DNA from: Bacteroidales bacterium
Lineage (GTDB): Bacteria > Bacteroidota > Bacteroidia > Bacteroidales > Azobacteroidaceae
Direction: 5' to 3'
DNA length: 13,466 nt
Assembly: GCA_020860885.1 (NCBI GenBank)
Contig: JAJBTS010000091.1
Location: 1 to 13,466 of the forward strand
Part shown: positions 100 through 12,721 of the stretch, in pieces
How positions within the stretch are numbered: the stretch's first letter is position 1
Layout of the letters: every line of letters starts with the position of its first letter
Position numbers and translations under genes: made by a program
Notes under the pieces: generated by a model
The model's input: the letters and a program-made list of their open reading frames with translations, nothing else
Told to the model about the DNA's origin: nothing
The model's database searches: none

Positions 100-984
100 A
101 TGAAAAAGTCAATATCTTATTTACCTTCAACCAATCAGAATGATTTAAATTTTATAGTCGAGATTATACTTAAGAGACTAAAAAACACCGAAATGATCTT
201 TCTTTACGGAAGCTATGCCCGCAATGACTATGTAACATACGATTATATAAATAAATTAGGGGAACGACCCTTTTATAAAAGTGATTACGATGTATTAGTC
301 CTAACGAGCGGTATCTCAGAAGGTATTGCAGGGAAAGCCCTCGATAATATTGAAGACCACTACAAAAGAATAAAGATTCCGGAAAGACACCCTCTTGTAC
401 AATTTATCAACGATGATATAAAGAAATTCAACAAAGACCTGAAAGAAGGAAAATATTTTGCAACTCACATCAAACAGGAAGGTGTTCTCTTATACAACAC
501 AGGAAAACATAAACTGGCCCGCAGACGTAAACTTAATTTTGAAAAAATAAAACAGCAAGCGGAAGAATACTATAAAGAAAAATCCCTCAGAGCTTACAGC
601 TTTTTATGCGATGCACAAGGTGCATATAACAGGAAAGACTACAAACAAGCTTCTTTCCATCTCCATCAGGCCACTGAAAATTTATTTTATGCTATCCGCT
701 TAGTTTATACGCTGAAAAGCAGTAAACAACACAACCTATCCAAACTATTAAATTCGGTGAAGAAGTATTCGAATGATTTTATAAAAGTATTCCCACTAAA
801 TACTACGGATGAAAAAAGACTTTTCAATCTTATCAAATCGGCGTATGTCGACGGCAGATACAATCCGGACTTCCTGGTTACCCGGGAAGATATTGATGCC
901 CTTATTCCTAAAGTAGAATTATTGCGGGACATTACCCAACATATATGCGAGAAAAGGATCAAAGAGTATGAGGAGTTAAAGTAA
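100..984 (+). CDS. MNT-HEPN fusion: nucleotidyltransferase plus HEPN domain protein
   Basis: The 294-aa protein joins two domains. Residues about 20-125 look like a minimal (MNT, polymerase-beta fold) nucleotidyltransferase, with GSYARND at 37-43 followed by the acidic pair D62-x-D64, the usual metal-binding pattern. Residues about 145-294 look like a HEPN helical domain (FHLHQATENL at about 187-196, then QHNLSKLL). Near the C-terminus R276-x4-H281 fits the RX4-6H motif of RNase-active HEPN proteins. Separate MNT and HEPN proteins form toxin-antitoxin pairs (HepT/MntA), in which the MNT adds AMP to the HEPN toxin. Fused versions are common in Bacteroidota and their role is less clear. The ATG at 100 follows an AT-rich leader without a clear ribosome-binding site. 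The gene stands alone, convergent with the glycosyltransferase operon. The domain call is firm; toxin-antitoxin or defence function is only possible. Confidence 0.8.
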   Translation: MKKSISYLPSTNQNDLNFIVEIILKRLKNTEMIFLYGSYARNDYVTYDYINKLGERPFYKSDYDVLVLTSGISEGIAGKALDNIEDHYKRIKIPERHPLVQFINDDIKKFNKDLKEGKYFATHIKQEGVLLYNTGKHKLARRRKLNFEKIKQQAEEYYKEKSLRAYSFLCDAQGAYNRKDYKQASFHLHQATENLFYAIRLVYTLKSSKQHNLSKLLNSVKKYSNDFIKVFPLNTTDEKRLFNLIKSAYVDGRYNPDFLVTREDIDALIPKVELLRDITQHICEKRIKEYEELK

Positions 985-997
985 AAAAGTAAATTTA

Positions 998-1030
998 CGA
1001 ATTCATAGTAAGGAATACTCATTCGTTTTT
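998..1030. terminator. Possible bidirectional terminator between convergent genes
   Basis: CGAAT at 998-1002 pairs with ATTCG at 1021-1025, and an inner AGTA/TACT stem adds to it across an asymmetric bulge. On the plus strand the hairpin is followed directly by TTTTT; on the minus strand it is followed by a T-rich stretch (TAAATTTACTTTTTT). It lies in the 44-bp gap between two converging genes, where a shared terminator is expected. The stem is short and AT-rich, so this is a moderate call. Confidence 0.35.
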
Positions 1031-1874
1031 ATCCGGAAATTATCCATCTGTTTTTGTTTTCCGTAAAGAAGCTGAAATAAAAACTAAAAAACAAATCCGG
1101 ACTCATGGCTTTCTTATCCGCAAGAGAAATCAAATGCCTGTAGATTGACTCCAACTCCGGATAATCCGATTGATTTTTTTCGATTAAATATTCAATAATT
1201 TCTTTTTTTATTTTTTCAGAAGTATAATTTTGTTCTTTCTCTTTTATTTGTGAGACTTGTGTTTCGGAAATACGGTAAAACAACAACGGTTGCGATTCGA
1301 CATAAAATACGCCGTTGTTTTTAGCTATTTCAAACCATAGTTTATAATCTTCGGCATAATCATAGTGTTGATATTGTAGATGATGCTTTTCCAGAAAGTC
1401 TTTCCGGATAAGAGTGGTCGGATGGAACAAGAGATTCTGTTTCAGTAAAGCTATGACCGGATATTCTATCCGGCCATCGACTATCCGGTTGATGCTGCCG
1501 GCCTGAATACTTTCCCCAAAAAGGTTTATCCAGGTGCCGCAAACCGTGATCGAAGGTTCTTCTTCCATAATTCTATATTGTATTCTCAAACGGTCGACGT
1601 GCATGATATCGTCGGCATCCATCCGGGCAATGTATTTGCCTGTTGCATAGTGCAAGCCTTTATTCAACGAGCCGACAAAATCGTGTTCGTTTTGCAATAA
1701 AACCATTCGTTTGTCTTTGTACGATTGAATAATTTCCAGAGTACGGTCCGTGGAACCATCGTCAATAATAATAAACTCAAAATTGCGGAACGATTGTTTC
1801 AGTACGCTATCAATGGCTGCGGAAACATATTCTTCCGCATTGTATACGGGCATTACTACCGATATTTTATTCAT
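1029..1874 (-). CDS. Glycosyltransferase family 2 (GT-A fold)
   Basis: The 281-aa cytoplasmic glycosyltransferase should move a sugar from a nucleotide-sugar donor to an unidentified acceptor. The GT2 motifs are intact: VVMPVYNAEEY at 6-16, the nucleotide-binding IDDGSTD at 37-43, the metal-binding DADD at 86-89, HPTTLIRK at 151-158, and the E175-D176 'ED' pair expected to hold the catalytic base. No transmembrane segment is evident; the C-terminus has an aromatic stretch (FFSFYFSFF) that might touch the membrane. It is the last gene of the five-gene minus-strand run, starting 6 bp after the upstream glycosyltransferase stop, so it is almost surely co-transcribed with it. It resembles capsule or LPS GT2 enzymes, but the neighbours are a double-glycine-leader gene and a LanC-like gene rather than polysaccharide genes. 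The acceptor could be a peptide or protein (inference). Confidence 0.9.
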   Translation of the reverse strand: MNKISVVMPVYNAEEYVSAAIDSVLKQSFRNFEFIIIDDGSTDRTLEIIQSYKDKRMVLLQNEHDFVGSLNKGLHYATGKYIARMDADDIMHVDRLRIQYRIMEEEPSITVCGTWINLFGESIQAGSINRIVDGRIEYPVIALLKQNLLFHPTTLIRKDFLEKHHLQYQHYDYAEDYKLWFEIAKNNGVFYVESQPLLFYRISETQVSQIKEKEQNYTSEKIKKEIIEYLIEKNQSDYPELESIYRHLISLADKKAMSPDLFFSFYFSFFTENKNRWIISG

Positions 1875-1880
1875 AAAAAT

Positions 1881-3140
1881 TTAATAATTTGTACATTCTT
1901 CATAAACCTCCATCATCTCCCGCATCATTCGTCCGGAAGTAAACTTTTCTTCGTACAACTTCCGGGCGTTTTTACCTAATTTTCTCCTCAACTCTTCGTT
2001 TTCTATCAGTTGAATTATTTTTTCAGCAAGGCTGTCCGTATCGACTTTTAATCCGAATACTTTCGAAAAAACCGTATTTACTTTTAAGGCGTTAACAGTA
2101 TCTTCAAACATTTCATCCAGACCGTCGACAGCTGTTGTAACGACCGGCAGACCGAACATCGCCATTTCTATGGCTACGTAACTGCATTGTTCCTGGATAG
2201 AAGCAATTATTCCTATATCATTTTCCGAATACTGTTTTTTTAAATCCTCAAAAGGAATTCTACCTAAGAGATTAACAGACAGATCACTAAAGTCTGTTTC
2301 TATTTTCTTTTTGAATTCCGGAGAACAGGCTCCGGCTACATTCAAGATTACCTTATAGTTTCTAAGCTGCACTTTCCGTAAAGCTTCCAGGATATAAAAG
2401 ATGCCTTTACTTTTCGAAAGCACTCCCACATAGAGGCAATTAAAAACTTCCCTCTTATTTTTCTGTCTTCTTGCAGCAGGCGACCCTTTGTTGCAATCGT
2501 ATAATCCGTTCGGGATAACGGCTATTTTACCAGGATCGATCTCCATCGTTTGTACAAGAAACTGTTTGGCACAACCGGTTACGGTTACCACTTTATCGCT
2601 GGCAGAATAGGCATCGTATTCGCAGTTATTGGTAAGAAAAAAATCTTTTCCCAATGTTTTATTCGTATTCAGATAACTCTCGGTGTAAAGCGTATTGAAC
2701 TTCTTTTTATGGGTATTAAACGAACTTTTCCAGGGGATACAATGCAGATGTGTAATAATTTTGCATGGAACCTGCTCTTTTATATACAAAGCCAGATCGA
2801 TTAAATTCAGATAATGTATATGCAGAACCGATATTGCGTTTTTATCGAAAATCCACTTCAGCTGTTCAAAAACATAAGTATTGTATTTGCGTATCCAATA
2901 TCGTTCGTGAATAATTTCGCCGCAATCCAAAGGAAACGGAACGACGATTTCGGTATAGCCTTCCTTTTCTGTCTGTTCGGCAAACAGCAGGGACGGGTTG
3001 CGCATCAATTCTATTTTATAAACACGGATATCTTCCGTGTGAAATTTTATTTCGTTCAATAAAGCATCTATATAACGGTCTACTCCGGAAGTAGCGTTGA
3101 CATTGGTAATATTAAGCAGGTATAGATTTGTTTTTTTCAT
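1881..3140 (-). CDS. Glycosyltransferase, GT-B fold (GT4-like), GG-Bacteroidales peptide-system type
   Basis: The 419-aa protein has a GT4-like layout. The N-terminal Rossmann half has SGVDRY at 18-23, HIHYLN at about 107-112 and HLHCIPWK at 131-138; the linker has VIPNG at 208-212; the donor-binding half has YVGVLSKSKG at 237-246 and the EX7E pair E317/E325 before GLPVVTTAVDG. All elements of a working retaining enzyme are visible. From memory, NCBIfam holds a glycosyltransferase model named for the 'GG-Bacteroidales peptide system', and the HLHCIPWK-type segment and genomic setting fit it; this should be tested by HMM. The gene lies 55 bp downstream of the LanC-like gene and 6 bp upstream of the GT2 gene. 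The acceptor is unknown: a modified peptide, the exported protein of the cluster, or a surface glycan are all possible. Confidence 0.85.
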   Translation of the reverse strand: MKKTNLYLLNITNVNATSGVDRYIDALLNEIKFHTEDIRVYKIELMRNPSLLFAEQTEKEGYTEIVVPFPLDCGEIIHERYWIRKYNTYVFEQLKWIFDKNAISVLHIHYLNLIDLALYIKEQVPCKIITHLHCIPWKSSFNTHKKKFNTLYTESYLNTNKTLGKDFFLTNNCEYDAYSASDKVVTVTGCAKQFLVQTMEIDPGKIAVIPNGLYDCNKGSPAARRQKNKREVFNCLYVGVLSKSKGIFYILEALRKVQLRNYKVILNVAGACSPEFKKKIETDFSDLSVNLLGRIPFEDLKKQYSENDIGIIASIQEQCSYVAIEMAMFGLPVVTTAVDGLDEMFEDTVNALKVNTVFSKVFGLKVDTDSLAEKIIQLIENEELRRKLGKNARKLYEEKFTSGRMMREMMEVYEECTNY

Positions 3141-3195
3141 GAGATTACATAAAGGTTAACTTTCTGCATTATCAAAGCTTAACGGGATTGCAGAG

Positions 3196-4206
3196 CTAAA
3201 GCTGAAGTACAGAAATAAACCGTGCAGCTTCTTTTCCTTCCTTCTTCAAATTTGTATATACAGCGTAAAGCAAGAACCGTGCAATACCCGCTTCGTAGGC
3301 AGGAATAAACTTATTCGGCGGAATTTTCCGTAATAAGTTTTTCTGCAAATCTTTCAAATCCGGAACAAACAAATCTTTTTCCAACAAAGCCATGTATGAC
3401 TTGTATTTTCCGGGATTCTGATGGAACAAATACAATAAGTCGATTTGCGCTGCCAAAGGAAATTGATCCGGGTGATTTTTTATATTTTGCAAAGCCCTGC
3501 TTTTGTTGGCTTTTATTATTTTATCCATGAATCCGCAATTTTCTATTTGTTTCTGTTCTATCAATCGTTCCAGATAAAAAGCAATTTCGAAACGGCTTGC
3601 AAACTTGTTTTTTTGATACAAACCGGCATATTCCCGAACTAAAGACTCCGATACCGGATAACGATGGTTGGAAACCATTCGCAGGTAATCCATAAAGTCG
3701 GTCAGAAATTGAAATTTTGATATTTCAGGGTTACGGATCTGTTGCTTCAGAGACTCTTCTTTCGCCTTCCTGATCTTAAGAATGCACTCATAAACCTCAT
3801 TCTCGTGAGTGGCTTCGTACAACAATGCCAGGAAATGAATGTGAGGAAACAGTTTTTCACAAAGAGTGGTTTCTTTCTTCACGACGGAAACAATTCTTTT
3901 TGCATATTCTCCGAATAGTTCATCGAAACTTGCATCAATAAACTGATTTTGTATCAGGTAAAGCAACACAAAACCGATTCCGGATATTCCATTCTCGAAA
4001 GTAAGATCGTCTTCGTTCTCGCCCAGCACCAGCGATTCCTGAAGTAATTCGAAAGCATGTTCTTCTATACTTTCATCCTGCAAATACCTGGCTGTTTCGA
4101 ACAAGGACAACGAAAGTCCTGCCTTGCCATTGTATATACCGATACTTTTAAGGGAATAAGCGTTGTAGAGAAGATAGGACGTAAGATTGTAAAGGGTCTT
4201 TTGCAC
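3196..4206 (-). CDS. LanC-like protein, probably lacking the zinc site
   Basis: The 336-aa protein resembles the alpha/alpha-barrel of lanthionine synthetase C (LanC-like) proteins. It has the Gly-rich repeats GIYNGKAGLSLSLF at 23-36 and ENGISGIGFVLLYL at 71-84, each followed by a helix, and a last repeat near AYEAGIARFLLYAV at 303-316. True LanC cyclases bind zinc through one Cys and a Cys-His pair near the C-terminus. Here the only cysteines are C116, C141 and C224, and there is no Cys-His pair, so a cyclase role is doubtful. The protein is also somewhat shorter than typical LanC. Only 55 bp follow before the next gene, so no lost C-terminal fragment sits downstream. It lies 36 bp after the double-glycine-leader gene, which links it to that product as scaffold, chaperone or immunity factor (inference). 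Family membership is fairly confident; the function is not known. Confidence 0.7.
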   Translation of the reverse strand: MQKTLYNLTSYLLYNAYSLKSIGIYNGKAGLSLSLFETARYLQDESIEEHAFELLQESLVLGENEDDLTFENGISGIGFVLLYLIQNQFIDASFDELFGEYAKRIVSVVKKETTLCEKLFPHIHFLALLYEATHENEVYECILKIRKAKEESLKQQIRNPEISKFQFLTDFMDYLRMVSNHRYPVSESLVREYAGLYQKNKFASRFEIAFYLERLIEQKQIENCGFMDKIIKANKSRALQNIKNHPDQFPLAAQIDLLYLFHQNPGKYKSYMALLEKDLFVPDLKDLQKNLLRKIPPNKFIPAYEAGIARFLLYAVYTNLKKEGKEAARFISVLQL

Positions 4207-4242
4207 AGGATCAGTTAGTCATCGTATTTATCTTTTATCTTC

Positions 4243-4854
4243 TCAATACATATTGCCGGTATCGTCCAAGTTGCCGGTATCATCGTTGCAATTCATCTTA
4301 ACACTCCAAAATCCTTTAACGTCGGATATACTTATAGTACCGCTTTTTTTATTGGATGGATCCTGATAAACGATGGAAATATCTTTAAGATTTCCATTTT
4401 CATCTCTAATATAACTCACATCTGTTCCAACTACAAAATGGCCGATACCTCGTCTATCCGTATCAATAGCCATAATGACTGATTCGTTCTTATTGTTAGG
4501 ATTCAGTGAGTTCAACATATCATTAAGACCACCCTCCGCAATTGGAGGATAATTCTTTATTTGAAGATTTTCAGAATCACTATAACCTCTCTTAAAACCT
4601 ACATCAACCCCTCTGCGATTCCGGGGATCCATTGCTCCTCCTCTATAGGAAAGGTTATCCACATATTCTGTGTAATAGCTTTGCGCATCTCTATTATTGC
4701 ACCCTTGTAGTTCATTGACAAGCTCCAAACAATCAAAGAGGCATCCCCAATCATTATTAAAATATCCTCCCCGAATCTTTTCAAGCTTATTTCTTTCCAA
4801 TACGGAGAGTTCATTTCTCATAGATTCCAAAGTAACTTTACTCATTTTTTTCAT
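4243..4854 (-). CDS. Double-glycine-leader protein with papain/C39-like Cys-His-Asp domain
   Basis: The 203-aa product has two parts. Residues 1-30 form a classic double-glycine leader: hydrophobic L19 (-12), L24 (-7) and I27 (-4) before G29-G30. Such leaders are normally cut by the C39 peptidase domain of a peptidase-containing ABC transporter during export. The remaining 173 residues are too long for an ordinary peptide and look like a papain-like fold. WGC places C38 at the start of a helix, GHFVVGTDV at 138-146 offers H139, and YQDPSNKK at 163-170 offers D165, the order and context seen in C39-like cysteine peptidases. C42, C52 and C189 are further cysteines. The ATG at 4854 is preferred because it gives the full leader; Met4 is an alternative. 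It is the second gene of the five-gene run. It could be an exported peptidase or toxin, a modified substrate, or an inactive papain-like protein. The leader is well supported and the fold is a motif-level inference. Confidence 0.75.
   Translation of the reverse strand: MKKMSKVTLESMRNELSVLERNKLEKIRGGYFNNDWGCLFDCLELVNELQGCNNRDAQSYYTEYVDNLSYRGGAMDPRNRRGVDVGFKRGYSDSENLQIKNYPPIAEGGLNDMLNSLNPNNKNESVIMAIDTDRRGIGHFVVGTDVSYIRDENGNLKDISIVYQDPSNKKSGTISISDVKGFWSVKMNCNDDTGNLDDTGNMY
4253..4285 (-). repeat. 18-bp tandem duplication at the 3' end of the leader-protein gene
   Basis: TTGCCGGTATC occurs at 4253-4263 and again at 4271-4281, giving an 18-bp period. In the protein it duplicates the acidic unit DDTGN(L/M) at the C-terminus (residues 191-202), so the reading frame is kept. 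It is probably a replication-slippage duplication in a flexible tail. Confidence 0.8.
4765..4854 (-). other. Double-glycine leader peptide (30 residues)
   Basis: This stretch codes for residues 1-30 of the cluster's exported protein. It ends in KIRGG, with Leu/Leu/Ile at -12/-7/-4 relative to the predicted cut after G30. The mature protein would begin at Tyr31, only seven residues before Cys38. No transporter with a C39 domain is encoded in the window, so the processing enzyme must be elsewhere. Confidence 0.8.
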
Positions 4855-4878
4855 AACATTTTAATTTTAAATTAATAA

Positions 4879-5667
4879 TTAAAGATAAATATACGGCAAC
4901 TTTTCTTTCTCCTCTTGAATCGTATCCAGATAGGTTTTCAGATATTGAGAAGGTTCAAAAATAAGTTTATATCCTCCCAAGAGTAAAGGTGAATCCTCAG
5001 GAGTTGGTTCGGGCACATATAAATACGACACTTTTTTAGACCTCATCTTTAATAAGAAAGAGAACATTCTATCCAGACCAATGTATATCTTTGCAGTAGG
5101 CAATCTATAATTGTCCGCATCTCCTTTTCTTCCAAAACGATAGTATACACCCAATATATAAGACGCTATTTCTTCATCCGTATGAAATATGTCTTCTTTT
5201 AATGCACCTGTCTTTTCATCAAAAAAACTCCGTTTTATTTCCATCAGTTCCGGGGAATAAATACCAATATATCCATATTCTTCCTGTTTCACTGTTACGG
5301 ATATATTTAGTGTTTGCTTGAGGTATGTTTGAAGGTATTCCACCAAAGGTTCTTCTTCTTCCTTTCTATAATAATCTACTTTATCTCCTTGTAAAGGGTT
5401 CTTCTTTTGTGGAAGAGGATTGAGGGTTCCGAGAAAGAAATACTCGGGAACAATAACCGGAGTAAAATCTGCAAAGAACCTCTCGCCTCTCTTCCCGGTA
5501 ATAAAGTGTTCGGGAAGAGTACCGGAGGTATAAATATAGTTTTCATAAGAAGAATCTACTATTGGAAGATCGGAATTATCCTCATATCCTTTGATGAACG
5601 GATTATTTTGTGCACTTACATCGAAACAACAGATCAGAATACAAAAAATAAACAATAGGTTTTTCAT
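4879..5667 (-). CDS. Secreted/periplasmic protein of unknown function heading the cluster
   Basis: This is a 262-aa protein of a family I do not recognise. Residues 1-20 form a clear Sec signal peptide (a Lys near the start, the hydrophobic core LLFIFCILICC, then cleavage after SAQ), so the mature protein should be periplasmic or secreted. The two Cys inside the core do not match a lipobox. The mature part is mixed alpha/beta, rich in Tyr, Glu and Lys, with no other hydrophobic helix, no obvious catalytic motif, no cysteine, and no C-terminal type IX secretion domain that I can see. It is the first gene of the minus-strand run and ends 24 bp before the double-glycine-leader gene, so the two are likely co-translated partners. 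Candidate roles are an inhibitor or immunity protein for the exported papain-like protein, or its delivery partner. Both are inferred from position only. CCCGGTGA just upstream of the ATG may be a weak ribosome-binding site. Confidence 0.75.
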   Translation of the reverse strand: MKNLLFIFCILICCFDVSAQNNPFIKGYEDNSDLPIVDSSYENYIYTSGTLPEHFITGKRGERFFADFTPVIVPEYFFLGTLNPLPQKKNPLQGDKVDYYRKEEEEPLVEYLQTYLKQTLNISVTVKQEEYGYIGIYSPELMEIKRSFFDEKTGALKEDIFHTDEEIASYILGVYYRFGRKGDADNYRLPTAKIYIGLDRMFSFLLKMRSKKVSYLYVPEPTPEDSPLLLGGYKLIFEPSQYLKTYLDTIQEEKEKLPYIYL

Positions 5668-5956: not shown

Positions 5957-5998
5957 AAAAAAAGAGGACTTTCTGATAAATATCAAAAAGCCCTCTTT
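5957..5998 (-). terminator. Rho-independent terminator of the tRNA unit
   Basis: On the minus strand AAAGAGG and CCTCTTT form a 7-bp stem, extended after one mismatch by four more pairs, around a loop of about 14 nt. It is followed by TTTTTTTATTT. It begins 2 nt past the 3' end of tRNA-Leu, so it ends the tRNA-Gly/tRNA-Leu transcript and should insulate the downstream cluster from it. Confidence 0.85.
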
Positions 5999-6198: not shown

Positions 6199-6229
6199 CA
6201 AAGATAATATCAATTTCTTTTTTTACAAA
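6199..6229 (-). promoter_or_regulatory. Consensus Bacteroidota promoter for the tRNA-Gly/tRNA-Leu unit
   Basis: The minus strand reads TTTG (6229-6226), exactly 19 nt, then TATCTTTG (6206-6199). This fully matches the primary-sigma promoter of Bacteroidota (TTTG, 19-21 nt, TAnnTTTG). The -7 box lies 12 nt before the tRNA-Gly 5' end, leaving a very short leader as expected for a tRNA transcript. It sits in the 61-bp gap after the ABC transporter stop, so the tRNAs do not depend on readthrough. Confidence 0.85.
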
Positions 6230-6247: not shown

Positions 6248-8083
6248 TCAAAAAGATTGCATTTCGCATAATTTTGTATAATAACCGTTCAGAGAAATCA
6301 GCTCGTTATGAGTTCCTCTTTCCACTATTTTCCCTTCGTTCATCACGCAGATAAGATCTGCATTTTTAATAGTAGAAAGCCTATGCGCTACTACAATAGT
6401 GGTTCTGCTGACCATTAGCTTCTCCAAAGCTTCCTGAACCAGTCGTTCCGACTCCGTATCCAAAGCCGAAGTGGCTTCGTCAAGGATTAAAATCGGAGGA
6501 TTCTTCAGTACAGCCCGGGCAATACTGATCCGTTGACGTTGTCCGCCCGAGAGCTTACATCCCCTATCCCCTATATTCGTATCGAAACCGTTTTCACTCG
6601 CTACAATAAAATCGTACGCATTGGCTATCTTAGCAGCCTCAATCACATCCTCTATTTTTGCATTTTTGACGCCGAAAGCTATGTTATTGAAGAAAGTATC
6701 GTTGAACAGGATGGCTTCCTGATTTACGATTCCCATCAGTTCACGTACATCTTTCACCTTTGCATCGCGTATATCTACTCCGTCGATGGTGATACTTCCT
6801 TCCTGGACATCGTAGAAACGGGGAAGTAAGTCTACCATGGTCGATTTTCCCGAGCCGGATTGTCCGACTAAAGCAACCGTTTTACCATTTGGTATTTCCA
6901 GGTTGACGCCTTTGATTACCCAGTCTTCCCTGTATTTAAACCAAATATCGTTGTAAGAAATCTTGCTGTTCAAAGCGATAGGTTTGGGATTCGCCGGATC
7001 CACAATGGTTGTTTCAGCCAGTAATATCTTGTCGATCCTTTCCATAGAAGCCAGACCTTTTTGAATGGAATAGGCCGCTTTGGATAATTCTTTTGCCGGA
7101 TTGATTAAACCGTAAAAAATAGTCAGGTAATAAATGAATGTACTTCCTTCTATGGAAGAACTGCTCTCATTAAGGATCAGATATCCTCCGTAGCACAACA
7201 CAATAGCAATGGTGACCGTTCCCAACAGCTCGCTCACAGGATGAGCCAATTGCTGCCTGCGGAAAATACGGTTGGTGGTATTCCTGAAAGTATTGTTGCT
7301 CTCCTTGAAACGGCGGGATATTTTATTTTCCGCATTAAAAGCTTTTATAATACGCAAACCGCCCAGGGTTTCTTCTATCTGAGCCATCAAAGCTCCCCAT
7401 TGCTCCTGTCCTAAGAAAGATGTCTTTTTCAGAGATTTACCCACCTGCCCCATGATATATCCGGCAAGAGGAAGCACCAGCAAGACAAAAACAGTAAGTT
7501 GCCAACTGATAATCAACATACCAACCAGATAAATCAATAGCATAACCGGATTCTTAAAAAGCATATCCAGCGAACTCATGATTGAATTTTCCACTTCATT
7601 CACATCCCCGGACATCCTGGCTAATATATCTCCTTTCTTCTCTTCAGAGAAAAAAGCCAAAGGAAGAGAGATAATTTTGTCGTTGATCTGATTCCGTATA
7701 TCCCGCAGCACGCCGGTACGGATAGGGATCATAAAATAAGAAGCGAGGTACATCACTCCCGTACGCATAACCGTTGTAACCACAAGGAAAACTCCCAAAA
7801 GATACAATATATTGACGGGCCCGTAATCGTCCGCAATCTGTGTCATATACCAATTGGTATTATTTTTCAAAGTTTCCTTAAAAGCGCTGATGGAATCAAA
7901 AGAAAGAGGGACATACTCGTATACTTCGTTTCCCACCTTAAACAACAACTCTAAAATGGGTATAATAAAGGAAAAAGATACCAGAAATAAGATCGCTGAA
8001 AGGATATTCATTACGATACTTATGATCAGATATTTTTTATAAGGAGGTACAAACCGTTTAAGTACCTGAATAAAATCTTTCAT
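6248..8083 (-). CDS. ABC exporter half-transporter (MsbA-like, membrane domain fused to ATPase)
   Basis: The 611-aa protein is a complete ABC exporter half-molecule that should work as a homodimer in the inner membrane. The first ~340 residues hold a six-helix membrane domain (clear hydrophobic segments at about 19-45, 91-117, 178-212, 286-305 and 313-327). The ATPase domain has Walker A GQSGSGKS at 407-414, the Q-loop at Q455, the signature LSGGQ at 511-515, Walker B ILILDE at 531-536 and the H-loop H567, all intact. Length and layout match MsbA-like lipid or multidrug exporters. It lacks an N-terminal C39 peptidase domain (the start, MKDFIQVLKRF, leads straight into helix 1), so it is not the expected processor of the double-glycine leader encoded nearby, and the tRNA unit with its own promoter and terminator separates them. 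The substrate (lipid A core, other lipid or drug) cannot be read from sequence. It is divergent from the barrel gene. Confidence 0.9.
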   Translation of the reverse strand: MKDFIQVLKRFVPPYKKYLIISIVMNILSAILFLVSFSFIIPILELLFKVGNEVYEYVPLSFDSISAFKETLKNNTNWYMTQIADDYGPVNILYLLGVFLVVTTVMRTGVMYLASYFMIPIRTGVLRDIRNQINDKIISLPLAFFSEEKKGDILARMSGDVNEVENSIMSSLDMLFKNPVMLLIYLVGMLIISWQLTVFVLLVLPLAGYIMGQVGKSLKKTSFLGQEQWGALMAQIEETLGGLRIIKAFNAENKISRRFKESNNTFRNTTNRIFRRQQLAHPVSELLGTVTIAIVLCYGGYLILNESSSSIEGSTFIYYLTIFYGLINPAKELSKAAYSIQKGLASMERIDKILLAETTIVDPANPKPIALNSKISYNDIWFKYREDWVIKGVNLEIPNGKTVALVGQSGSGKSTMVDLLPRFYDVQEGSITIDGVDIRDAKVKDVRELMGIVNQEAILFNDTFFNNIAFGVKNAKIEDVIEAAKIANAYDFIVASENGFDTNIGDRGCKLSGGQRQRISIARAVLKNPPILILDEATSALDTESERLVQEALEKLMVSRTTIVVAHRLSTIKNADLICVMNEGKIVERGTHNELISLNGYYTKLCEMQSF

Positions 8084-8255: not shown

Positions 8256-11171
8256 ATGAAAATTTTTGGGAATATCCTAATTTTCTTTCTCTGCGCTGTT
8301 TCCGTTTTCGGTCAGGGAAATATATCTCTATCAGGAACGATATTAGACAAAACCGAGGAAGCACCTATCATCGGAGGGACTGTAGAACTACTGAATCCTA
8401 AAGACAGTACAGTAATAACCGGAGCTATCAGTGACGTAAACGGGATTTTCTCCATGCCGAATCTGTCTTCCGGAAAGTATATTCTCAAATTTTCTTATCT
8501 CGGCTTTAATGAGCTGACTCAAAACCTCAGCCTTTCTGGCAACCGACCCGCTATGAATGTCGGGAAGGTATATCTCGAACCCAATACCATTTTGCTGAGT
8601 GAGGCCGTTATAGATGGTAAAAAACCGGAAGTTATCGTTAAAAACGATACCATTGAATACGATGCGGCGTCTTATAAAGTAACAGAAAATGCAGTGGTGG
8701 AAGATCTTTTGAAAAGGCTTCCGGGTGTAGAGGTGGATACGGATGGTAAAATTACCGTGAACGGCAAAGAAGTTAAAAAGTTCCTTATCGAGGATAAGGA
8801 ATTCTTCTCGGACGACCCACAGGTCGCTTCCAAGAACCTTCCCGCAGAAATGGTTGAAAAACTTCAGGTCGTAGACCGCAAGTCGGAAACCGCCCGGTTG
8901 ACGGGATTTGACGACGGAGAAGAAGAAACGATCATCAACCTCACGGTTAAGCCCGGGATGAAAAAAGGAACCATGGGAAATGCTTTTGTGGGAGCCGGAA
9001 CCGACCTTGCCGATGATAACGATGTGCGATACAGAGGAGCGGGGTTCCTGAACCGGATGCAGGGAAATGACCGTTATACCGTAATTGCAGGTATTAATAA
9101 CAACAATAATATGGGAGCAGGCGATCTGGGCGCTCAACAGTTCGGAGGTATGAGGACCCGGAGAGGATCCGGCGGTATCACCGAAACGACAAACCTTATG
9201 GTCAGCATGGATAAAGAATTATGGTCGAATGCAACGTTGAACGGTGATATACGATACACCGGACTGGACCGGTTATCACGGACCATCACGGAAGAAGCTA
9301 CTTTATCGGAAGAAAGATCGCAGCTAGACAAAAGCAATTCCATGAACAATTACCTGTCGGATGCTATTTCTACCAATTTCAGGTTTGAATGGAAACCCGA
9401 CACACTGAATACCCTTATCGTACGTCCTAATTTCTCCTACAATAAAAGCAAAAGTTTTGAAACAAGTACCTTATACCGTTCTAATTTCGATACGGGAAAT
9501 ATGATCCTGGACGAATATCAGTCGGCTAAAGCGAAAGGTGAAGGGTACCGGTTCGGAGGAAATCTGGAATATGCTCATAAGTTCGCCAAACCCGGCCGGG
9601 TATTTAGTTTATCTTTAAGGGGAAATTACAATGACAGCTATTCTTATGAAAACAATTTCAACAGGAGTATACGGTTCTCGGACGACAACGAAGAGACAGA
9701 AACCATTCAAAACAGACGGGATGAAAACGATAATACCAGCAATTCTTTAAGAGGAACGGTAACTTGGGTAGAACCTTTAGGAAATAGCAATTTCATTCAA
9801 GGTTCTTACCGGATATCTTATACGGATACCAAGAATATAAACAGCACCTACGACCTTTGGAGAGACCTGGAAGATTACGATCCTTTGCTGGTCAATTCTT
9901 TATTAGCCAATGATTCCATAGCAACCTTAGTACTGGACCAGAGCCGTAGTACGTTGCGGGATGCGTTGGAACAACGGATCTCCGTAAGCTTCAAAGCCAT
10001 CCGGGAGAAATACAATTACACCATCGGTTTTAATATCGACCCTTCCAATTCGCTGAATGAAACTTATCAGCCTTTTGCAAGCCAGATAGAACCGATCACT
10101 TATATGTACGACAGGCGTTTGCCGAATGTAATGGGCGATTCCCTGTTTTATTCCGTAGAACAAAACGTAGTCAATTTTTCACCGGTTATTAATTTCAATT
10201 ATTTATTAGGACCCAGATCCAATATCCGCATCGATTATGAAGGTGAAACCAATCAGCCTTCAGCCAATCAATTGAGGGATTACATTGATATGTCGCGCCC
10301 CAACAATTGGGTAGAAGGGAATCCGAATCTTAAACCGAGTTACAGGAACTCTCTTCGTGCTCGTTTCATGAAATACATAACAGAGTCACAGCTCTCCTAT
10401 AATATTTCTGTTAACGGAGATTTCTCTACGAATGATATTGTTTCGGTCATGGTTTTACTGGACGATGGAGTGCGCTTAACCCAATACAAAAATGTAAATG
10501 GCAACTGGAACGTAAGCGCCAGGGGAGGGTTTAATATGCCTCTCAGAAACAAGAAATTCACCATCGGCAGCTTTTCTTCGTTAAGTTACCGGAACCAGAA
10601 GTCGTACGTTAACAGCAATGAGAACACGATGAAGAATTTCCAGGGCCGTATTTCCGCCAATGCAAACTACCGTTCAGATCTGTTCGATATAGGCATCCGG
10701 GCCAATTTCAACTACAACGATATCCATTATACCATACAGCCGGAAAAAAATCAGCAGACTTACAATTACGGCGTAGGCGGCTTTACCACCTGGTATTTGC
10801 CTTACAACTGGGTAATCGAAAGCGATATCAACTGGACAGACCGTGCAGGATACGCCTCCGGGTTCAATATCCCTGAAGTGATGTGGAATGCTTCAGTAAC
10901 CAAACAAATATTTAATAATACGAATGGAACCGGTTCTCTGAAATTCGATATTTACGATATTCTTCAGGACAGGAACAGTATCTCCGCCTCTTACACGGAT
11001 AACGGATATAAGACCACGGATTCGAACGCTATTCCCAGCTATTTTATGTGCAGCTTCATTTATAAGTTTACCTTTTTCCCAAAATCCTCCGGTTCTGGCA
11101 ACAGCGAGGGAGAGCCGAGACGCGGACCCGGCGAAGGGGGCGGCCGCAGAGGAGGGCCTCCGATGTTCTAA
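8256..11171 (+). CDS. Outer membrane beta-barrel protein (TonB-dependent-receptor-like, CarboxypepD_reg plus plug plus barrel)
   Basis: The 971-aa protein carries a Sec signal peptide (MKIFGNILIFFLCAVSVFGQ, cut after Q20). Residues about 22-110 form a carboxypeptidase regulatory-like beta-sandwich (SGTILDKTEEAPIIGGTV, then DVNGIFSMPNL and YLGF). Residues about 113-235 form a plug-like domain (AVVEDLLKRLPGVEVD, KKFLIEDKEFF, AEMVEKLQVVDR). About 240-945 is a long run of alternating-polarity strands rich in Tyr, Asn and Arg, typical of an outer membrane barrel. The final strand, CSFIYKFTFF, is followed by a 28-residue Gly/Arg/Pro-rich tail ending GGRRGGPPMF. The layout fits the 'outer membrane beta-barrel family' relatives of TonB-dependent receptors. 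It has no SusC signature and no SusD gene follows, so polysaccharide uptake is not indicated, and the substrate is unknown. It is monocistronic, and its stop codon overlaps that of the convergent porX by 4 nt. Confidence 0.88.
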   Translation: MKIFGNILIFFLCAVSVFGQGNISLSGTILDKTEEAPIIGGTVELLNPKDSTVITGAISDVNGIFSMPNLSSGKYILKFSYLGFNELTQNLSLSGNRPAMNVGKVYLEPNTILLSEAVIDGKKPEVIVKNDTIEYDAASYKVTENAVVEDLLKRLPGVEVDTDGKITVNGKEVKKFLIEDKEFFSDDPQVASKNLPAEMVEKLQVVDRKSETARLTGFDDGEEETIINLTVKPGMKKGTMGNAFVGAGTDLADDNDVRYRGAGFLNRMQGNDRYTVIAGINNNNNMGAGDLGAQQFGGMRTRRGSGGITETTNLMVSMDKELWSNATLNGDIRYTGLDRLSRTITEEATLSEERSQLDKSNSMNNYLSDAISTNFRFEWKPDTLNTLIVRPNFSYNKSKSFETSTLYRSNFDTGNMILDEYQSAKAKGEGYRFGGNLEYAHKFAKPGRVFSLSLRGNYNDSYSYENNFNRSIRFSDDNEETETIQNRRDENDNTSNSLRGTVTWVEPLGNSNFIQGSYRISYTDTKNINSTYDLWRDLEDYDPLLVNSLLANDSIATLVLDQSRSTLRDALEQRISVSFKAIREKYNYTIGFNIDPSNSLNETYQPFASQIEPITYMYDRRLPNVMGDSLFYSVEQNVVNFSPVINFNYLLGPRSNIRIDYEGETNQPSANQLRDYIDMSRPNNWVEGNPNLKPSYRNSLRARFMKYITESQLSYNISVNGDFSTNDIVSVMVLLDDGVRLTQYKNVNGNWNVSARGGFNMPLRNKKFTIGSFSSLSYRNQKSYVNSNENTMKNFQGRISANANYRSDLFDIGIRANFNYNDIHYTIQPEKNQQTYNYGVGGFTTWYLPYNWVIESDINWTDRAGYASGFNIPEVMWNASVTKQIFNNTNGTGSLKFDIYDILQDRNSISASYTDNGYKTTDSNAIPSYFMCSFIYKFTFFPKSSGSGNSEGEPRRGPGEGGGRRGGPPMF

Positions 11172-12721
11172 GACTTAGGTTCCAAAGTAATTAAAGGAAC
11201 CATCATTTCTTCCATGGAGATACCTCCATGCTGGAAAGTATCTTTATAATAAGAGACGTAGTAATTGTAGTTGTTAGGATAAGCAAAGAAATTATCATTC
11301 AAAGCAAAAACATACTTTGTACTGACATTGGGAGCAGGTAATCCGAACTTATGGGGATTGGATATCTCGTATACTTCTTTCGGATTGTAAGCCAGATTCT
11401 TTCCTAATTTATATCTTAAATTCGTATTTGTATTCCTATCGCCTACGACTTTAATAGGATCGTTCACGCGAATGGTTCCATGATCGGTAGTCAGGATCAC
11501 TTTACAGCCTCTTTCCGCTATTTTACGGAACAATTCCCGGGCTGTGGAGTGTTTGAACCAGGAACGAGTCAACGAACGGTAAGCCGCTTCCGTGGATGCC
11601 AGTTCCCGCACCATCTTGGATTCCGTACGCGCATGCGACAACATATCGACAAAGTTGAGGACAATAACATTCAACTGGTAATTTTCCAACTGCTTAAAGT
11701 TTTGCAACAGTTTCTCTCCGTAGCTGGATTCGTTTATTTTATGATAAGAGAAGGTATATCTTTTTCTGAAACGGTCGAGCTGTGTTTGAATAAGGGGAGC
11801 TTCGTTCAGGTTTTTTCCTTCTTCCGATTCTTCATCGACCCACAAATCAGGGAACATTTTCTCTATTTGGGAAGGCATCAGTCCGGAGAAGATAGCATTC
11901 CGGGCGTACTGAGTCGCTGTCGGTAAAATAGAGAAATAAAGATCTTCATTAAAGGTAAAAAACTCAGCCAATATATCACTTACTTCCCGCCACTGGTCCA
12001 GACGGAAATTATCTATCAAAACGAAGAATATCTCTTCTCCTTTGTCCAGCAAAGGGAATAATTTCGATTTGAAGATGTCGGGGCTTATAACAGGCCTGTC
12101 AGGGAAGTCCGGATTCTGTATCCATTTCTCATAATTCTTTTTTATGAACTTACTAAAAACCTGGTTGGCTTCCTGTTTTTGCGTGCGTAACAAATCGGCC
12201 ATCCCTGTCTGGGAAGCTTCCAGCTCGAGTTCCCAATACACCAATTTCTTGTACACCTCTTTCCAATCGTCGGTAGTAAAAGAATCGTTGATTTGCATTC
12301 CGATTTTCATGAATTCCTGTTGATAACCGGAAGTCATAGCTTTCGTAATGATCTCATTCTGATGAAGATTCTTTTTTATAGAAAGCAAGATCTGATTCGG
12401 ATTTACCGGTTTGATCAGGTAATCCGCTATTTTGCTTCCTATCGCCTGGTTCATGATTCCTTCATCTTCGCTTTTAGTGATCATGATAACAGGTACGGTC
12501 GGACTCAGTTCTTTAATAAGAGCCAGAGTCTCCAGTCCGCTTAATCCGGGCATATTTTCATCCAGGAAGATCAGGTCGAACGTTTCTTCTTTCACGCAGT
12601 CGATAGCATCCTGACCGCTGCATACCGTTACCACTTCATACCCTTTATCTTCGAGAAATAAAATGTGAGGCTTCAGTAAATCAATTTCATCGTCTGCCCA
12701 CAAAACCCGGTCTTTCTTCAT
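11168..12721 (-). CDS. porX: PorX-type response regulator: receiver domain plus PglZ domain
   Basis: The 517-aa protein has a receiver domain at about 1-120, with the acidic pair D10-D11, phospho-acceptor D54 (FLDENMPG), T82 and K104 (IKP). A helical linker follows, then a PglZ domain of the alkaline-phosphatase superfamily at about 205-510. Likely metal ligands are visible: D237 and D242 (LIDNFRLDQW), Thr in PTATQYARN (266-274) at the nucleophile position, D359/H363 (FVDMLSHAR), D413-H414 (TTDHGT) and H498 (FQHGGIS). This architecture and length match PorX, which with the sensor PorY controls type IX secretion genes in Porphyromonas; its PglZ domain is reported to have phosphodiesterase activity. 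The active site looks intact. No DNA-binding domain is present. The gene follows a coiled-coil gene by 3 bp. porY and the type IX secretion genes are not in the window, so the regulated pathway here is unproven. Confidence 0.92.
   Translation of the reverse strand: MKKDRVLWADDEIDLLKPHILFLEDKGYEVVTVCSGQDAIDCVKEETFDLIFLDENMPGLSGLETLALIKELSPTVPVIMITKSEDEGIMNQAIGSKIADYLIKPVNPNQILLSIKKNLHQNEIITKAMTSGYQQEFMKIGMQINDSFTTDDWKEVYKKLVYWELELEASQTGMADLLRTQKQEANQVFSKFIKKNYEKWIQNPDFPDRPVISPDIFKSKLFPLLDKGEEIFFVLIDNFRLDQWREVSDILAEFFTFNEDLYFSILPTATQYARNAIFSGLMPSQIEKMFPDLWVDEESEEGKNLNEAPLIQTQLDRFRKRYTFSYHKINESSYGEKLLQNFKQLENYQLNVIVLNFVDMLSHARTESKMVRELASTEAAYRSLTRSWFKHSTARELFRKIAERGCKVILTTDHGTIRVNDPIKVVGDRNTNTNLRYKLGKNLAYNPKEVYEISNPHKFGLPAPNVSTKYVFALNDNFFAYPNNYNYYVSYYKDTFQHGGISMEEMMVPLITLEPKS

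Follow-up and report, generated by a model that had tools for sequence, protein, structure and literature searches.

Gram-negative double-glycine bacteriocins, among them colicin V, the bacteroidetocins and Caulobacter Cdz, are antibacterial products that leave the cell by means of a leader and a C39-type transporter or by type I export; what they export is a peptide or a glycine-zipper protein. Polymorphic toxin systems (Zhang et al. 2012, PMC3482391) have a constant delivery part, a variable toxin domain and an adjacent partner gene, and the toxin-domain table of that paper includes papain-like C39, JAB and Tox-MPTase2 domains. The portion of it available to us has among its listed routes the type II, V, VI and VII secretion systems (T2SS, T5SS, T6SS, T7SS), PVC and TcdB/TcaC, names neither T1SS nor "type I secretion", and describes no LanC-like or glycosyltransferase tailoring genes that we could find. 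A report on Bacteroidales (PMC10352776), which also names colicin V and bacteroidetocins, describes three clusters whose LanC proteins lack the zinc triad; they carry GG-type leaders, putative precursor peptides, radical SAM and pseudo-rSAM enzymes and sometimes a glycosyltransferase (in one LanC and radical SAM cluster) and a peptidase-containing ABC transporter (PCAT), and neither immunity proteins nor, in the genomes screened there, LanB were recognised. A survey (PMC7268733) leaves 1392 LanC-like proteins, encoded without LanB, LanM or kinase, unclassified, some of them clustered with ABC transporters and proteases; its precursor search was limited to open reading frames (ORFs) of 30-120 residues, so folded cargos like those described below would have been missed. 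Here we analyse a 13,466-nucleotide stretch of the Bacteroidales assembly GCA_020860885.1 (the window; positions 1 to 13,466 of contig JAJBTS010000091.1), which carries a five-gene cassette. The window lies within a 19.5 kb contig, and the genome amounts to 3.0 Mb on 438 contigs.

On balance, we favour reading the cassette as one representative of a polymorphic system of effectors and immunity proteins, with a type I PCAT as exporter. What can be read from the genes is a recurring set with a common leader, exchange of cargo, a secreted neighbour and loss of the cyclase motif from a LanC-like protein, with a C39 exporter in cis at some loci and on another contig in the window's genome. The cassette resembles polymorphic toxin systems in its constant delivery part, variable domain and adjacent partner gene, and differs from them in route and in its tailoring genes. 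With the zinc-less LanC clusters it shares the missing triad, the leader type and, at some loci, glycosyltransferase and PCAT, but not the radical SAM enzymes or small precursors. It shares leader and transporter with the double-glycine bacteriocins, whose cargos are unlike the swappable series of enzymes here. The ingredients are each known singly, and we rate the combination as a variant of polymorphic toxin systems; we recognised no description of it in an open-access library, subscription papers and preprints being outside the search. The features of the locus are:

4879..5667, minus strand: S, 262 residues, Sec-type secreted, predicted LAGLIDADG-like fold; probable partner or immunity protein of GG
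4243..4854, minus strand: GG, 203 residues, leader-bearing, putatively papain-like effector (C38, H139, D165), with a paralogue on contig C87
4765..4854, minus strand: GG leader, a 30-residue double-glycine leader, aligned with the leaders of 25 other proteins and supported by a leader-only profile
3196..4206, minus strand: LanC-like protein, 336 residues, GTG start, without zinc motif; probable glycosyltransferase docking partner
1881..3140, minus strand: GT4 glycosyltransferase, 419 residues, related to TIGR04157
1029..1874, minus strand: GT2 glycosyltransferase, 281 residues, with a DAD motif
5961..5998, minus strand: terminator-like hairpin of 17 pairs, between the tRNA-Leu gene and S

ORF coordinates confirmed the five same-strand genes, with gaps of 24, 36, 55 and 6 bp, described in a first-pass annotation of this DNA; transcription runs from S through GG, the LanC-like gene and GT4 to GT2, and the spacing suggests co-transcription. 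The same annotation took the genes for a single cassette and proposed looking for their joint conservation across Bacteroidales, a check that found them together: the LanC-like gene, GT4 and often GT2 recur beside a leader-bearing protein and a secreted partner. A GT4 alignment scanned against named genomes yielded 18 loci, of which 17, all from Bacteroidales, were kept after exclusion of L077 (Bacilli, a generic GT4 match), duplicates being counted once (L070 read as L033; L090 as L069; L115 as L065). The LanC-like gene adjoins GT4 in 16 of the 17, the exception being L074; 13 of the loci have a GT2, 11 a leader-bearing protein and nine a same-type C39 PCAT. Among the hosts are Proteiniphilum acetatigenes DSM 18083, Proteiniphilum sp. 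X52, Paludibacter sp. 47-17 and Paraprevotella clara YIT 11840. Because the set recurs, we reject an accidental grouping in which an unrelated secreted protein happens to lie beside polysaccharide glycosyltransferases.

Leader and LanC clade were also compared across genomes. The LanC clade occurs in six of 393 Bacteroidales genomes (E<=1e-15), and a leader-only profile matched six of 393, five of them among the six LanC-clade genomes. Four of the six leader-positive genomes had supplied rows to the profile, and G303 and the weakly matching G309 (E 4.6e-4) had not; as those four are among the five shared positives, G303 is the one independent shared positive. Absence in the other genomes is unaffected by the rows supplied.

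GG consists of the 30-residue leader, ending Gly-Gly, and a 173-residue cargo. In an alignment of 26 leaders on the Gly-Gly motif over 30 residues, position -21 was Leu in 25 and Ile in one, position -1 was Gly in all and position 0 was Gly in 21; a Met stands exactly 30 residues ahead of the motif end in 20 of the 26 proteins. These 26 proteins, referred to below as effectors, were chosen by eye and non-blind from loci in hand, and the leader-only search is the less biased test. The link to double-glycine leader systems drawn in the first-pass annotation is supported; in the comparison with GG-Bacteroidales models that the annotation suggested, GG fell short of the curated cut-off of TIGR04149, a family of rSAM-modified RiPPs (17.9 bits, cut-off 25). 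Leaders with Lys, Met or Arg as the second residue of the pair occur in L031 (6748-7248 and 13920-14435), L091 (5846-6382 and 7477-8040) and L076 (11477-12001).

Papain-like character of the GG cargo is suggested by the positions of C38, H139 and D165, all matched in the C87 paralogue, and by one protein with the same leader type, L147, which matches Peptidase_C39_2 (24.5 bits, cut-off 24). Among eight leader proteins taken as papain-like, the Cys and Asp are invariant, and the His is not aligned in all. A Pfam scan of GG matched no family, and the predicted structure was poor (predicted local distance difference test, pLDDT, 45.5) and was not used. The sole match to GG among 5.8 billion proteins was GG itself; the C87 paralogue was not returned, so the reach of that search was limited. 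The earlier proposal that GG is an exported, folded papain-like protein rather than a small peptide is supported.

The leader is constant across the 26 proteins while the cargo changes, giving a constant N-terminal trafficking part with exchangeable C-terminal domains. The cargos, which reach about 430 residues and carry enzyme motifs, fall into several unrelated groups: CHAP-like, metallopeptidase, DUF5675, JAMM-like and papain-like (family scans took in part of the cargos). CHAP-like cargos occur in L061, L063 and L092, and the L064 cargo matches Tox-MPTase2 above the cut-off. HExxH motifs are found in L033, L062, L069 (two), L071 (two) and L073. DUF5675 was matched well above the cut-off in L066 and L068, the latter with an additional weak phospholipase A2-like match. 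For 40 residues past the leader the L061 and L062 proteins share 70% identity, beyond which one is CHAP-like and the other has HExxH, and in L069 leader genes are repeated with short GT2 fragments in between, a pattern expected of displaced cassettes. In the window's genome, contig C212 has the common leader on another protein, 188 residues long, that carries a JAMM-like motif; behind it come a secreted protein that is unrelated, a disrupted LanC-like gene and a GT4 truncated at the contig end. The first-pass annotation, which had described the leader protein and its secreted neighbour, missed that both are variable parts of a swappable series; this variability points to effector-immunity pairs.

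By a simple hydrophobicity rule the gene directly downstream encodes a secreted protein for 22 of the 26 effectors, compared with 46 of 236 other ORFs in the same loci. Two of the four exceptions, the window and L095, have the secreted gene directly upstream, and the others are L071_11274 and L089. A putative cognate partner gene adjoins 22 effectors downstream and two more upstream. Further loci from the leader-only search with room downstream had a secreted protein there in three of three cases (L145, L146, L147). Partners also cluster by sequence, for CHAP-like effectors at three of three loci (one of these partners matching DUF3828 at 26.4 bits, cut-off 26), for DUF5675 effectors at two of two, for Tox-MPTase2-like effectors at two of three (L064 with L069) and for papain-like effectors with S at two of two, within one genome. 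Judged by sequence similarity, partner family appears to track the class of the effector in most of the cases that can be compared; two exceptions are given below. Partner genes also stand alone or in tandem, as with S on C198 and four related genes in Paraprevotella clara; L109 has one relative each of S and of the DUF5675 partners, with no effector adjoining.

S itself, the probable partner or immunity protein of GG, has a hydrophobic N-terminus ending SAQ, and a domain scan matched no family above cut-off. Its paralogues in the same genome lie beside GG on C87, where the order is the reverse of that in the window, in tandem on C198 and beside the exporter on C391. The predicted structure gave Foldseek matches to the LAGLIDADG-endonuclease fold; this comparison is a re-inspection of Foldseek's own matches, and the true fold may be another. 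The residues at the LAGLIDADG motif ends, where the catalytic acids would stand, are non-acidic in 10 of 10 first and nine of nine second motifs that could be placed in 11 sequences, at the usual motif spacing. Sequence tests give no confirmation: there was no Pfam LAGLIDADG match, and hhalign against eight intein domains gave E 0.57, with shallow profiles. S is predicted to have a LAGLIDADG-like fold without catalytic acids. Two paralogue contigs have further genes of note. On C198 (L049, 3-3352) three tandem S genes are followed by an Rhs-core-like fragment and then by a protein ending, by reading and with no Pfam support, in a JAMM-like stretch. On C87 (L025, 490-3025) genes for a LicD-like protein and a nucleotidyltransferase/aminotransferase-like protein, also by reading, face the second GG-S pair.

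The LanC-like protein scores 23.0 bits against Pfam LANC_like (cut-off 23.2) over residues 23-145 only. The CHG zinc motif is present in none of 21 aligned members; a LanC beside LanB in the same genus has both WCYG and CHG. GT4 scores 200.6 bits against TIGR04157 (cut-off 400) and 80.8 against Glycos_transf_1 (26.4), and GT2 scores 115.9 against Glycos_transf_2 (23.3). A single protein of 541 residues on contig C63 has matches to Glycos_transf_2 (55.7 bits) and to LANC_like (26.1 bits), and BLAST found LanC-like sequence within long proteins of C329, L035, L039 and L046, which by reading resemble glycosyltransferase fusions. From these fusions we infer that the LanC-like protein is a docking partner for the glycosyltransferases, perhaps via the leader. 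The protein was sought in viral contigs and none was found. On C329 of the same genome (L030, 2-9460) a long glycosyltransferase/LanC-like protein is accompanied by a PCAT, a radical SAM enzyme, TonB-dependent receptor pieces and a Cys-rich leader peptide of 107 residues.

Lanthipeptide synthesis by the cassette is ruled out by the missing CHG and by the lack of any LanB resemblance among the ORFs of the 19.5 kb contig. Elsewhere, a split LanB occurs in L059 (contig C356 of the same genome, 1714-8385), with a PCAT and HlyD, and in L042 (G018 C18, 8574-13270), with a true LanC and a GG peptide; Lant_dehydr_N was found in both, and Lant_dehydr_C was tested in L059.

No C39 exporter is encoded on the window's contig; the sole PCAT-resembling gene is an MsbA-type transporter at 6248-8083, whose likeness lies outside the C39 part, and a PCAT label on the window locus was a cross-match to this gene. 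Contig C391 of the same genome encodes a C39 PCAT with its triad present (C, H, DP), alongside TolC, HlyD and an S paralogue, and also holds the first part of a LanC-like gene. At L065 (identical to L115; Dysgonamonadaceae metagenome-assembled genome Cf509_bin64, same GTDB genus) the order is S relative, another secreted gene, LanC-like gene, GT4, GT2, PCAT and HlyD, with TolC two small genes beyond, and the PCAT is 85% identical to that on C391. The exporter for the window cassette is therefore probably encoded elsewhere in the genome.

A working model is as follows. The product of the GG gene would be a papain-like enzyme preceded by a standard leader of 30 residues. Before export, in the cytoplasm, GT4, GT2 and the LanC-like protein would bind leader and cargo and attach sugar, perhaps near (S/T)-G-x-aromatic sites. 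The C39 transporter, supplied in the case of the window from another contig, would with its HlyD and TolC partners cleave past Gly-Gly and export the enzyme; leader and transporter make cleavage and export likely. Outside the cell the enzyme would attack the envelope or surface proteins of competitors, and S, reaching the periplasm by its Sec signal, would neutralise it in the maker and its kin; we consider such antibacterial action with immunity rather probable. At other loci the common leader and the tailoring genes occur with different enzymes and different partners. A bolder version, possible though on the doubtful side, is a Bacteroidales class of polymorphic toxins with double-glycine leader and type I peptidase-transporter that are glycosylated at (S/T)-G-x-aromatic sites in the cytoplasm before export, by GT4 and GT2 positioned by a LanC-like protein that binds the leader and is dead as a cyclase; the sugar might be an entry ticket into glycan-importing competitors, and the immunity proteins would include a periplasmic, catalytically dead LAGLIDADG fold.

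Whether the cargo carries sugar at all has about even chances. The pattern (S/T)-G-x-(Y/W/F) occurs 41 times, in 19 of the 26 effectors, a count inflated by repeats in two P. clara proteins and by homologous pairs; 4.8 would be expected from 306 other ORFs, and shuffled effectors gave a mean of 11.3 (standard deviation 3.3, maximum 22). The known Bacteroides O-glycosylation sequon, D(S/T)(A/I/L/V/M/T), showed no enrichment (11 occurrences against 16.1 in shuffles). As an acceptor site the aromatic pattern is a lead only. The glycosyltransferases and the LanC-like protein might rather modify the maker's own surface, for instance in self-protection, as relatives of GT4 and GT2 are common in polysaccharide pathways. 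This is unlikely: all three genes recur with leader proteins, LanC-like sequence is elsewhere fused to glycosyltransferase sequence, and the aromatic pattern is enriched in effectors, though the Bacteroides sequon is not.

Attack on competitors has its own rival, in which the cell secretes the leader proteins for digestion or to remodel surfaces and the partners serve as their inhibitors, chaperones or surface anchors. Hydrolases are predicted for many of the cargos, and the partners are secreted and varied, with TonB-C-like and beta-propeller matches among them. Conflict is the better fit to modular swapping behind one leader, to partner genes in tandem or alone and to the match with a named toxin family, and we regard this rival as unlikely. 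The first-pass annotation had likened the cassette to a RiPP (ribosomally synthesized and post-translationally modified peptide) neighbourhood. The likeness holds for leader and exporter, and is limited to these because the LanC-like protein lacks the cyclase zinc motif. A pathway ending in a small modified peptide cut from GG would account for the double-glycine leader, the LanC-like protein and the weak TIGR04149 match, but is very hard to reconcile with cargos of such size and with the missing zinc motif, LanB and radical SAM enzyme. The absence of the latter from the cassette, noted earlier, was upheld: no radical SAM family matched among seven window proteins scanned, and none of the contig's ORFs is similar to the single radical SAM protein taken as reference.

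Several observations weigh against an effector-immunity system. Export, toxicity, immunity and glycosylation are all inferred from genomic evidence. The leader protein is absent from six of the 17 loci, although three of these six end soon after GT4 or GT2 (L067, L072 and L075 end soon after or within these genes), and the second Gly is replaced by Lys, Met or Arg in five of 26 leaders. The CHAP matches all fall just under the cut-off (25.8, 22.9 and 23.8 against 26), and the HExxH pattern is weak alone because it also matches a CHAP-like protein. The L073 effector resembles those of L064 and L069, but at E<=1e-3 its partner is not similar to theirs, and among the YWGK/YWGM proteins the partner differs between L031 and L091. 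The GG-S pair is known only twice, both times in the window's genome, and S relatives in L065 and L109 have no adjoining leader gene in the stretches examined.

If the effector-immunity reading is true, a leader-peptide type I route joins the ways in which polymorphic toxins exit cells, and the LanC-like and glycosyltransferase genes left unclassified in surveys for want of a dehydratase acquire a role. Bacteroidales effectors overlooked by family searches would share one readable tag, and the role of zinc-less LanC proteins would become directly testable in cultured Proteiniphilum acetatigenes and Paraprevotella clara.

The cassette is flanked by a tRNA-Leu/tRNA-Gly pair on one side and a HEPN-domain gene on the other, and its G+C content is 37.1%, compared with 42.1% for the contig from 6200 on. 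A Bacteroidota-type promoter pattern had a single match in the window, at 6199-6229, with no above-chance signal. The adjoining HEPN gene (100-984, plus strand; PF05168, 45.9 bits) encodes a protein with a nucleotidyltransferase-like N-terminus and a weak HalB match (NF051895). At 11168-12721 on the minus strand, a PglZ domain is fused to a response regulator.

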